Positions 1-3,161 of a DNA stretch of 64,000 nt are shown in pieces (positions within the stretch are counted from its first letter, which is position 1; each line of letters begins with the position of its first letter). The DNA comes from Saprospiraceae bacterium (GTDB taxonomy: Bacteria; Bacteroidota; Bacteroidia; Chitinophagales; Saprospiraceae), in contig JALHQW010000002.1 in assembly GCA_022841745.1 (NCBI GenBank), forward strand, positions 56,520-120,519, given 5' to 3'. The notes beneath the pieces were generated by a model that worked only from the letters and a program-made list of their open reading frames with translations, was not told the origin of the DNA and made no database searches. Made by a program: the position numbers and the translations under genes.

Positions 1-410
1 CCGGAAGCCCGTGCCTTACACCACGTTTACTAAACTTCAAAAGTTTAGTAAACGTAAGCCCGGAAGCCCGTGCCTTACACCACGTTTACTAAACTTCAAA
101 AGTTTAGTAAACGTAAGCCGGAAGCCCGTGCCTTACACCACGTTTACTAAACTTCAAAAGTTTAGTAAACGTAAGCCCGGAAGCCCGTGCCTTACACCAC
201 GTTTACTAAACTTCAAAAGTTTAGTAAACGTAAGCCGGAAGCCCGTGCCTTACACCACGTTTACTAAACTTCAAAAGTTTAGTAAACGTAAGCCCGGAAG
301 CCCGTGCCTTACACCACGTTTACTAAACTTCAAAAGTTTAGTAAACGTAAGCCCGGAAGCCCGTGCGATGCCCCACGTTTACTAAACTTCAAAAGTTTAG
401 TAAACGTAAT
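1..410. repeat. Array of seven REP-like palindromes
   Basis: Seven copies of a 33-bp perfect palindrome (15-bp arms ACGTTTACTAAACTT and its complement, loop CAA) lie at 23-55, 82-114, 140-172, 199-231, 257-289, 316-348 and 375-407. Linkers are near identical (GCCCGGAAGCCCGTGCCTTACACC type). Start-to-start spacing is 59, 58, 59, 58, 59, 59, so two units make 117 bp, a multiple of three. This explains the long spurious open frame across the array. The array is cut by the window start. Its position next to a RAYT transposase and the shared hairpins in and after that gene make it a BIME-like REP cluster. That assignment is inference; the repeats themselves are directly visible. Confidence 0.93.
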
Positions 411-460: not shown

Positions 461-1354
461 ATGAGATTCGACTACTGGCAAAAACTTGAACCCAACTGTT
501 TCTACCACATCTACAACCGGGGTATCAACAAGGAAACCATTTTCAAAACCGATGAAAACATGAAGTTCTTTTTAAAACGTTGGAAAGAACTAATAAGCCC
601 TTACTTGGATGTCGCCGCTTTTTGCCTGATGCCAAACCATTTTCATTTCTTGGCAAGGGTAAAGCCCATGACGGACGAAATAAAAGCAGCCGTCAAAAAA
701 GAAGGCACGGTGCGGGCCGAAAAGTTCTTGGAAGGACAAATCAACCACAACGACTTTTTGGAAGACCAGTTCAAAAGGCTTTTCCAATCTTATGCGCTGG
801 CTTTCAATAAGCAACAGGGGCGAACTGGGAGTCTTTTGCAAAAGCGGTTCAAAAGGGTTGGTGTCAACAGTGAGTTCAAGCTTTGGCACTTGTTGGCGTA
901 CATCCACCACAATCCGATTCACCACCGCTTTCGGGCGAGGTATGAGGATTGGGGCTTTAGTTCCTACAATACCTATCTGTCTGAAAGTCCAACGATGGTG
1001 ATTCGGGAGGAGGTGTTGTCTTGGTTTGAGCCAAGGTACGAGGCACCACGTTTACTAAACCTCGAAGGTTTAGTAAACGTAGACCCTGGGGCTGTGCTTG
1101 AACCACGTTTACTAAACCTTGAAGGTTTAGTAAACGTAGACCCTGGGGCCGTGGTTGAACCACGTTTACTAAACCTCGAAGGTTTAGTAAACGTAGACCC
1201 TGGGGCCGTGGTTGAACCACGTTTACTAAACCTCGAAGGTTTAGTAAACGTAGACCATCGAAAAACGGCTTTGCAGCGCTTTTTGAAATACCATGAAGAG
1301 TTCAAATTGAATTATAAGGAAATGGGGGATTATTATTTGGACGATGAGGAGTAA
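461..1354 (+). CDS. REP-associated tyrosine transposase (RAYT, Y1/HUH family) with in-frame palindromes
   Basis: A 297-residue protein of the IS200-like Y1 transposase family, which nicks and joins single-stranded DNA at hairpins. The HUH motif is NHFHF (H60 and H62). The catalytic tyrosine is probably Y147 in AYIHHNP. The catalytic part ends near residue 190 (VLSWFEPRY). Then come four repeats of about 19 residues (core RLLNLEGLVNV), each encoded by a palindrome, and then a normal-looking RAYT C-terminus (ALQRFLKYHEEF). The ATG lies 54 bp after the last upstream palindrome and three more palindromes follow the stop. RAYTs are known to move or maintain REP elements, and the flanking hairpins are the natural substrate. 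The oddity is that the substrate sequence occupies part of the coding region. Whether the expanded protein is active cannot be told. Confidence 0.9.
   Translation: MRFDYWQKLEPNCFYHIYNRGINKETIFKTDENMKFFLKRWKELISPYLDVAAFCLMPNHFHFLARVKPMTDEIKAAVKKEGTVRAEKFLEGQINHNDFLEDQFKRLFQSYALAFNKQQGRTGSLLQKRFKRVGVNSEFKLWHLLAYIHHNPIHHRFRARYEDWGFSSYNTYLSESPTMVIREEVLSWFEPRYEAPRLLNLEGLVNVDPGAVLEPRLLNLEGLVNVDPGAVVEPRLLNLEGLVNVDPGAVVEPRLLNLEGLVNVDHRKTALQRFLKYHEEFKLNYKEMGDYYLDDEE
1048..1251 (+). repeat. Four REP-like palindromes inside the RAYT reading frame
   Basis: Perfect 33-bp palindromes at 1048-1080, 1105-1137, 1162-1194 and 1219-1251, exactly 57 bp apart, so each unit adds 19 codons and keeps the frame. Loops are CGA, TGA, CGA, CGA. 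Arms end in CCT/AGG instead of the CTT/AAG of the upstream array: a paired substitution that preserves base pairing. The same frame reads RLLNLEGLVNV in each copy. Confidence 0.95.
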
Positions 1355-1371: not shown

Positions 1372-1524
1372 ACTACGTTTACTAAACTTTTAAAGTTTAG
1401 TAAACGTAGTGTACTACGATGCCCTAGTTACCCCACGTTTACTAAACTTTAAAAGTTTAGTAAACGTAGCTCCACGGAACCCGCTTACCCCACGTTTACT
1501 AAACCTTTGAGGTTTAGTAAACGT
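1372..1524. repeat. Three further REP-like palindromes downstream of the RAYT gene
   Basis: Palindromes at 1372-1410 (arms extended to 19 bp, one-base loop), 1435-1467 (loop TAA) and 1492-1524 (CCT/AGG arms, loop TTG). Linkers differ from those of the upstream array, so these copies diverged or inserted separately. They occupy the whole interval between the transposase stop and hsdM and could act as terminators. Confidence 0.92.
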
Positions 1525-1550: not shown

Positions 1551-3161
1551 ATGAAAGAAACAAACCAACAACAACTCGGCAAAACCCTCTGGGCCATCGC
1601 CGACCAGCTACGGGGCGCCATGAACGCTGACGATTTTCGGGACTATATGCTCTCGTTCCTGTTCCTGCGCTACCTCTCCGACAACTACGAGGCAGCCGCC
1701 AAGAAGGAACTGGGGCGGGACTATCCCGTGCTGGAAGACGACGAGGGCCATGCGCCCCTGTCGGACTGGTACGCCAATGAGCCGAGCGATATGGAGGAAT
1801 TCGAAAAGCAGATGCGCCGCAAAGTGCATTATGTCATAGAGCCTGCGCATTTGTGGAGCAATATCGCAGAAATGGCCCGCCTCCAAAGCGGGGATTTGCT
1901 GCACACGCTGGAGGCCGGGTTCAAGTACATTGAGGAGAAATCCTTTAACAGCAGCTTTCAGGGCCTGTTCTCGGAAATCAACCTGAACAGCGAGAAGCTC
2001 GGCAGGACCTACGCCGAGCGCAACGCCAAGCTCTGCACCATCATCCAGAAGATAGCCGAGGGCATAGCAGGCTTCTCCACGGATATAGACGTACTGGGCG
2101 ATGCCTATGAATACCTCATCGGACAGTTCGCAGCGGGCAGCGGCAAGAAGGCCGGGGAGTTCTACACCCCACAGCAGATTTCGAGCATCCTATCCGAAAT
2201 CGTGGTACTGGACAGCCAAGAACCCAAGACCGGGAAGAAGAAGCGGTTAGACAAGGTGCTGGACTTCGCCTGTGGTTCCGGCTCCCTCCTCCTCAACGTG
2301 CGCAAGCAGATGGGCACGAACGGCATCGGCAAGATATACGGCCAAGAGAAGAACATCACCACCTACAACCTGGCCCGCATGAACATGCTGCTGCACGGGG
2401 TGAAGGACACCGAGTTCGAAATCCACCACGGGGACACCCTGCTGAACGAATGGGACATCCTGAACGAGATGAACCCCGCCAAGAAGCAGGAATTCGACGC
2501 CATTGTCGCCAATCCGCCGTTCAGCTACCGCTGGGAACCCAAGGAGGAAATGGGGCAGGATTTCCGTTTCAAGACCTACGGCGTGGCCCCCAAGTCGGCG
2601 GCGGACTTCGCCTTCCTGCTGCACGGCTTCCACTTCCTCGGCAAAGAGGGCGTGATGGCCATCATCCTCCCGCACGGCGTCCTGTTCCGTGGCGGCGTCG
2701 AGGAGCGCATCCGCACCAAGCTCTTGAAGGACGACAATATAGACACCGTCATCGGCCTGCCCGCCAACCTGTTCTTTTCCACGGGCATCCCGGTCTGCAT
2801 CCTCGTGCTGAAAAAGTGCAAAAAATACGAGGACGTGCTGTTCATCAATGCCGCTGATTATTTCGAGAAGGGCAAGCGCCAAAACAACCTCCGCCCCGAT
2901 GACATCGCCAAAATCGTTGACACTTACCGGGAGCGCAAGGAGGAAGACCGCTATTCCCGCCGGGTTTCGATGGAGGAAATTGCGAGGAACGACTACAACC
3001 TCAACATTTCCCGCTATGTTAGCACGGCCAAAGACGATGTGGAGATAGACCTTGGGAAGGTGAATGCGGATTTGGTGGAGATTGAACGGAAGGCGAAGGA
3101 GGCGTTGGGGAGGCATAATGGGTTTTTGAGGGAGTTGGGGGTTGGGGAGTTGCCGGGGTGA
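1551..3161 (+). CDS. hsdM: Type I restriction-modification DNA methyltransferase subunit, orphan
   Basis: A 536-residue N6-adenine methyltransferase of the HsdM family. An N-terminal helical HsdM_N domain (about residues 8-140) precedes the N6_Mtase domain. The AdoMet-binding motif I is LDFACGSGS near residue 238 and the catalytic motif IV is NPPF at 321-324. The C-terminus (FLRELGVGELP) looks complete. HsdM normally works with a specificity subunit HsdS and the nuclease HsdR, but neither follows: an IS256-type inverted repeat begins four bases after the stop and the next gene is unrelated. The gene is therefore an orphan here unless hsdS/hsdR lie elsewhere. Without HsdS it should lack sequence-specific activity (inference). 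Confidence 0.9.
   Translation: MKETNQQQLGKTLWAIADQLRGAMNADDFRDYMLSFLFLRYLSDNYEAAAKKELGRDYPVLEDDEGHAPLSDWYANEPSDMEEFEKQMRRKVHYVIEPAHLWSNIAEMARLQSGDLLHTLEAGFKYIEEKSFNSSFQGLFSEINLNSEKLGRTYAERNAKLCTIIQKIAEGIAGFSTDIDVLGDAYEYLIGQFAAGSGKKAGEFYTPQQISSILSEIVVLDSQEPKTGKKKRLDKVLDFACGSGSLLLNVRKQMGTNGIGKIYGQEKNITTYNLARMNMLLHGVKDTEFEIHHGDTLLNEWDILNEMNPAKKQEFDAIVANPPFSYRWEPKEEMGQDFRFKTYGVAPKSAADFAFLLHGFHFLGKEGVMAIILPHGVLFRGGVEERIRTKLLKDDNIDTVIGLPANLFFSTGIPVCILVLKKCKKYEDVLFINAADYFEKGKRQNNLRPDDIAKIVDTYRERKEEDRYSRRVSMEEIARNDYNLNISRYVSTAKDDVEIDLGKVNADLVEIERKAKEALGRHNGFLRELGVGELPG

Follow-up and report, generated by a model that had tools for sequence, protein, structure and literature searches.

In-frame copies of a flanking palindrome inside a RAYT-like transposase gene of a Saprospiraceae bacterium

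A RAYT-like gene (RAYT, REP-associated tyrosine transposase; REP, repetitive extragenic palindrome) of a Saprospiraceae bacterium contains four in-frame copies of a palindrome that also occurs on both sides of the gene. The analyzed stretch, referred to below as the window, is 64,000 nt long (assembly GCA_022841745.1, contig JALHQW010000002.1, positions 56,520 to 120,519), and coordinates given without a contig or locus name are positions in it. The explanation we consider best, with a probability of about 0.6, is that a REP unit inserted in frame was tolerated and then multiplied in tandem.

The gene, its palindromes and its flanks

The palindromes, all on the plus strand, occupy positions 1048..1080, 1105..1137, 1162..1194 and 1219..1251. 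Each is 33 nt long, with perfect 15-bp arms ACGTTTACTAAACCT and AGGTTTAGTAAACGT and a 3-nt loop, and a 24-nt spacer makes the spacing exactly 57 nt in every case. The open reading frame (ORF) runs through them without interruption from 461 to 1354, and its translation contains RLLNLEGLVNV four times, the copies corresponding to residues 196-264, C-terminal to Y147. The first-pass annotation had described the same four copies, spacing, frame and repeated peptide, and both coordinates and translation agree with it; the four in-frame palindromes are thus confirmed as real. They are read as CCAC-palindrome-GTAG, that is, with GTAG on the 3' side. The region 1020-1290 folds much more stably than expected (z-score -9.35 as RNA and -11.85 as DNA). 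Chance hairpins are ruled out by the excess of the 13-nt arm (28 occurrences with at most one mismatch in the window, 0.01 expected), by synonymous-codon shuffles of 79 RAYT genes, where an internal arm of at least 12 nt was seen in 0 of 1,580, and by the distribution of stem pairing described below.

The encoded protein (461..1354, plus strand, 297 aa) is supported as RAYT-like, i.e. as a TnpA_REP-type Y1 transposase, by its translation, by NCBIfam and by profile and structural matches to 4er8, the structure of the E. coli TnpA_REP transposase with a bound REP hairpin. It has the HuH motif NHFH (residues 59-62, 635..646, plus strand; N59, H60 and H62 are invariant in an alignment of 78 sequences) and a single catalytic Tyr in the Y---NP context, in the motif YIHHNP (residues 147-152, 899..916, plus strand; Y147, H149, N151 and P152 are invariant in the same alignment), the role of the latter being assigned as in the consulted sections of PMC6006769. 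The NCBIfam model REP_Tyr_transpos scores 50.4 bits and so falls short of its cut-off of 80, and a Pfam scan of the protein gave no matches at 0.001. In a Foldseek search with the AlphaFold model, the top match is 4er8 (E-value 2.5e-7, TMt 0.66), followed by the IS608 and ISDra2 transposases, and TnpA_REP is the sole match of profile A1 in the PDB at 0.01 (4er8, 1.4e-7). In comparisons of the protein core with four homologues, the proportion of nonsynonymous differences (pN) is 0.24-0.31, with saturated synonymous sites (pS 0.855-1.07), and therefore the core has been under past protein-level constraint. The protein is presumably made and active, and the palindromes would be spread by the enzyme.

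The same 13-nt arms are found in the four in-gene palindromes, in seven palindromes of an upstream array (23..407, spacing 58-59; 16 copies if the DNA before the window is counted) and in three downstream palindromes (1375..1524). The earlier claim that a RAYT carries its own palindrome in frame is supported. As in REPtrons, both flanks of the gene bear its own dispersed palindromes. Exact matches to the core pattern number 40 in the genome, 26 being around the window gene (C2:53.6-58.1 kb), and the spacing in arrays of this family outside the gene ranges from 46 to 83 nt, 57 being among the values. The alignment score of the in-gene spacer with that of the upstream array was reached by 9 of 5,000 shuffles, and the scores with the two downstream spacers by 1,834 and 323 of 5,000.

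The neighbouring gene encodes HsdM, a type I modification methylase (1551..3161, plus strand; N6_Mtase 1.9e-106, HsdM_N 8.2e-25), which is of interest as context only. Upstream of the window, an ORF on C2 (L105:6868-8130) encodes an hsdR-like N-terminal part, comprising HSDR_N and the first half of the helicase domain, and runs into the palindrome array. This ORF looks truncated, with hsdM coming after the RAYT gene. An hsdR-like protein from contig C17 gave no matches in the window when used as query, the missing hsdR part itself not being usable as one.

The insert and its counterparts in the same genome

Compared with four homologues of 219-222 aa (L025, L026, L027 and L031), the window protein has a single insertion of approximately 73 residues, located between SWFE and KTALQRFLKYH. 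An alignment of homologues had been proposed for residues ~197-265, and the close homologues (~220 aa) indeed have no such segment, which rules out an ordinary protein region. The AlphaFold model places the insert with low confidence between two helices: in ten-residue blocks, the predicted local distance difference test (pLDDT) is 43-59 in the insert and 92-98 in the core, and it rises to a mean of 81 in residues 261-270 and 96 in residues 271-280. The predicted C-terminal helix that follows (residues 266-280, 1256..1300, plus strand) aligns with the C-terminus of the homologues. The insertion has no counterpart in homologues and keeps the frame, as do Rickettsia palindromic elements (RPEs).

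Among 248 genomes of the family, 29 (own genome counted) have a RAYT match at 1e-45. At 21 of the 28 other loci, parsing yielded an ORF that has both motifs (a short one, 174 aa, in one case), and none of these 21 ORFs contains an internal palindrome with arms of at least 11 nt. Flanking palindromes are present at 9 of the 21 loci, several of them sharing the core of the window palindrome. The palindrome occurs in 37 of the 248 genomes, that is, in 14 of the 29 with a RAYT match and in 23 of the 219 without one (Fisher's exact test, p 4e-6). In the same genus, 13 RAYTs of the loci L146-L161 were parsed (all but L146-L148), and 4 of them contain an internal palindrome that belongs to some other family and has at most one mismatch. 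In one of these 4 (L154), a different palindrome, proper to that gene, is in frame C-terminal to the Tyr motif, in a loop that seems to be a little upstream of the window's insertion site.

Within the same genome, in-gene palindromes are seen in three of the seven RAYT profile matches (the window gene and those on contigs C53 and C38; C24 was left out, and C48 and C92 are covered in part, C92 showing no such hairpin in a scan for perfect arms). The C53 gene has one in-frame AGACTTTCCAAG palindrome between the HuH and Tyr motifs and six copies nearby outside the gene. The C38 gene (L114) has three 57-bp in-frame copies of a AGTGAGGGYGTGAC palindrome with one stem mismatch, and nine flanking copies. 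Both palindromes differ from that of the window gene, and each matches the copies outside its own gene.

These genes bear on the possibility that the arrangement is an assembly or annotation artefact, with a wrong copy number or a dead gene. The assembly is a draft of 178 contigs with runs of N, so that copy numbers are provisional, reads may be too short to span the 228-bp in-gene array, and the exact arrangement of the window is seen in this genome only. Still, the frame, the residues of the HuH and Tyr motifs and the C-terminus are intact, and the same pattern recurs in two other RAYTs of the genome, which makes an artefact very improbable.

Moreover, three RAYT-linked palindrome families (A, B and C) are also found in frame in non-RAYT genes, which rules out a RAYT-only phenomenon in this genome. 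In icmF (C50:51600-54600, L281), the clean case, the peptide of palindrome B falls in a gap of the isobutyryl-CoA mutase alignment. This peptide, DFPSFxNLESL, is read in the same frame in icmF, in pheT (C23:27000-30000, L278; residues 51-769 align with PheT chains) and in the C53 RAYT; icmF and pheT contain a single palindrome B each. Towards the end of a histidine kinase ORF (L284:560-1885, C2:216300-219600, at ~217.8 kb), palindrome C is present in frame four times with a 54-bp period, and the hsdR-like ORF of C17 (L107:1-2037, minus strand) contains one palindrome A. The pheT, icmF and hsdR-like ORFs extend past the analyzed stretches, and the remaining copies are intergenic or lie in doubtful frames. 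The periods of tandem arrays inside three identified genes are 57, 57 and 54, all multiples of three, while outside genes they are variable, 57 included. Because RAYT-linked palindromes are in frame in non-RAYT genes as well, their in-frame presence needs no RAYT-specific role.

Two further repeats were noted in these contigs. The hsdR-like ORF of C17 contains, as a second repeat type, a separate fourfold in-frame repeat TGTPVPVGTY, and a 121-aa open frame on C32 (L285:1445-1807, minus strand), with no convincing family, contains the peptide of palindrome C four times.

In the mechanism that we propose, a RAYT gene situated as in a REPtron would have acquired, in frame, one 57-bp unit of its own repeat family in the loop between the last two helices, and tandem expansion would then have raised the copy number to four. 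The insert, for which disorder is predicted and which follows the catalytic core in sequence, would be tolerated since a 57-bp unit keeps the reading frame (57 is divisible by three) and neither adjacent helix is lost. We infer the order of events and the neutrality of the insert. In the simplest view, the window gene is one instance of something more widespread in this genome, with REP units getting into genes in frame, persisting in loops and multiplying in tandem, and RAYT genes may be preferred hosts through their location inside arrays.

Palindromes inside RAYT genes at large

We collected RAYTs from 80 loci of genome contigs, from 395 searched genomes of the phylum and from the loci of the genus, the first two of which may overlap in genomes, since identical proteins only were merged. 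This yielded 218 ORFs with 212 distinct proteins, of which 173 were kept (at least 150 aa, both motif patterns); among the 39 dropped is the C53 RAYT, apparently because of its Tyr motif YIHANA. The taxa are mostly Bacteroidota, with Cloacimonadota, Chlorobi, Anaerolineales, Verrucomicrobia and Armatimonadota also represented. Outside these sources, viral contigs gave five pattern matches and no relatives, and plasmid records gave one match with 33% identity.

Internal perfect palindromes with arms of at least 12 nt are present in 40 of the 173 ORFs, a count that includes the window gene and also L078 with its AT-rich hairpin (this locus was left out of the arm-difference and tree analyses and kept in the permutation). 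This is probably an undercount, since a scan for perfect arms misses such cases as the C38 RAYT with its stem mismatch, itself outside the set. The hairpins are located mostly between the HuH and Tyr motifs (36), with seven after the Tyr motif, four of which are those of the window, and one, that of L078, before the HuH motif. The site after the HuH strand is recurrent in many lineages, and on a FastTree tree of 172 rows the state of the HuH-Tyr palindrome changes 21 times, a count given without a shuffled comparison. In the model of the Draconibacterium orientale protein (L070), the palindrome peptide follows the HuH strand, ahead of the next long helix, in a partly helical stretch of lower confidence (pLDDT 59-65).

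Of the HuH-Tyr palindromes, 29 of 35 are read in one phase, and this is also the phase of the window copies, by arithmetic. Such uniformity, together with the occurrence of DFPSFxNLESL in three different proteins of the genome, would be expected if the peptide were useful, for instance as a linker or an interaction loop, and the palindrome merely its source. The other six palindromes are in another phase and encode unrelated peptides, the insert of the window protein is predicted to be disordered, and the common phase may be inherited within a clade, so we regard a useful peptide as hardly probable.

Several observations weigh against tolerated insertion. The best 14-bp stem in the HuH-Tyr region of 172 genes has 13-14 pairs in 42 genes and 12 pairs in only three, the best stems of the other 127 being similar to those in synonymous shuffles, where 3 of 516 reach 13 pairs. 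The small number of half-decayed palindromes is unfavourable because neutral inserts should decay. Internal hairpins are strongly concentrated in RAYT genes, with 26 in 49.7 kb of RAYT ORFs and one in 270 kb of other ORFs at the same loci, though these control ORFs may contain spurious frames. Flanking palindromes are found at 19 of 36 genes with internal palindromes and at 53 of 120 without them (Fisher's exact test, p 0.45; counted for ORFs having 500 nt or more on each side), and therefore array proximity as the cause of in-gene palindromes is not borne out. In the window gene, the innermost pairs of the arms are unlike those of the upstream array and the same as those of the last downstream copy. 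Finally, pheT is a weaker case than icmF, as its palindrome residues are partly opposite linker residues of the homologues, with no clean gap.

These data have to be weighed against a role of the palindromes as a target of their own enzyme: hairpins formed within the gene, either in its mRNA or in lagging-strand single-stranded DNA, would be bound or cut by the enzyme whose gene holds them, limiting its level or marking the gene, and would be kept by selection. Consistent with this, internal palindromes resemble those on the flanks of the same gene: in 22 ORFs the mean best identity is 84%, compared to 59% with other loci, a difference reached in none of 20,000 permutations (related loci are not independent in this comparison). 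However, only 13 of the 22 ORFs have their closest match, ties included, on their own flank, and in five (L075, L078, L097, L123 and L125) the identity is below 70%. Among two-sided differences of the arms between homologues, 162 of 164 are compensatory, with 24 one-sided differences, in a set that is biased upward, being picked for perfect pairing and composed of non-independent pairs. The two-peaked distribution of HuH-Tyr pairing persists where fourfold sites are saturated (their identity is 35% at 60-70% protein identity and ~30% below that), and the recurrence of one site across lineages also agrees with a selected target. On the other hand, the family matches of the window gene contain no second case among the 21 parsed, palindromes are in frame in non-RAYT genes, and the same pattern would result if the copies were reinserted or evolved in concert with those on the flanks. 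The HuH-Tyr palindromes are, so, maintained, homogenized with the flanks, or reinserted at one site. On balance, self-targeting in the window gene, and with it the possible self-limiting circuit suggested in the first-pass annotation, appears unlikely. The wider proposal, that the in-gene palindrome of many RAYTs, mostly from Bacteroidota, is a maintained cis element and the enzyme's own target, of which the window would be an amplified and relocated version, is a tentative possibility. If it were true, the element would change in step with the flanking palindromes by paired substitutions despite saturated synonymous sites, and would serve self-regulation or the matching of the enzyme to its REP family.

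Tolerated insertion followed by tandem multiplication explains poorly the rarity of half-decayed HuH-Tyr palindromes and the paired changes, and therefore a maintained self-target stays its main rival. A role at the DNA level is possible, judging from sequences in which the palindromes are kept paired and often matched to the flanks. Why RAYT genes keep their own palindrome can be tested, as synonymous recoding would remove the hairpins and leave the protein unaltered.

Comparison with known systems

It is usual to treat separately the REPs around RAYTs, those inside RAYT genes and the Rickettsia-like palindromes that are translated as part of other proteins; the genome studied here links them, showing all three situations with common palindrome families. 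In the first-pass annotation, in-frame palindromes were taken to be known from Rickettsia genes and not from inside a RAYT. The latter is not supported: Quentin et al. 2018 (PMC6006769, cited here and below for the sections consulted) have already described in-frame REPs inside tnpA_REP genes, generally between the HuH and Tyr motifs, which rules out novelty of kind. In these sections, in-gene REPs are treated as unique to subclass 2.4 (RAYT group 4). The window gene is similar to this subclass in having REPs in and around the tnpA_REP gene with the frame kept, the insertions of subclass 2.4 being, according to the authors, in a peripheral extension. It differs in that its copies are after the Tyr motif, are four in tandem and lack the 5' GTAG foot (GT[AG]G in the definition of the subclass); the C53 and C38 RAYTs do have their palindromes between the HuH and Tyr motifs. 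Moreover, the SS motif after the Tyr in the window protein is of the type given for subclasses 2.1, 2.2, 2.3 and 2.6.

By motif features, which are the only basis of this comparison, the window gene resembles subclass 2.6 (RAYT group 5, Bacteroidetes, with atypical flanking structures): it has YIH[QN]NP-like and SS motifs, no GTAG foot, and palindrome copies elsewhere in the genome. In contrast to the window gene, no in-gene palindromes are mentioned for subclass 2.6 in the same sections of PMC6006769.

The non-RAYT cases resemble the intragenic REPs and RPEs covered in the consulted part of "GTAG- and CGTC-tagged palindromic DNA repeats in prokaryotes" (PMC3733652), which reports intragenic REPs, with clusters encoding 43-82 residues, and in-frame RPEs of Rickettsia, and which argues that palindromes read in frame within genes of known function occupy linkers or loops, where they are neutral. 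Here, too, palindromes are in frame in identified genes, singly or in clusters. Unlike in the cases given in that part, one of the host genes here encodes the palindrome's own putative transposase, and what is new is the position of the insert, its four copies and the quantification.
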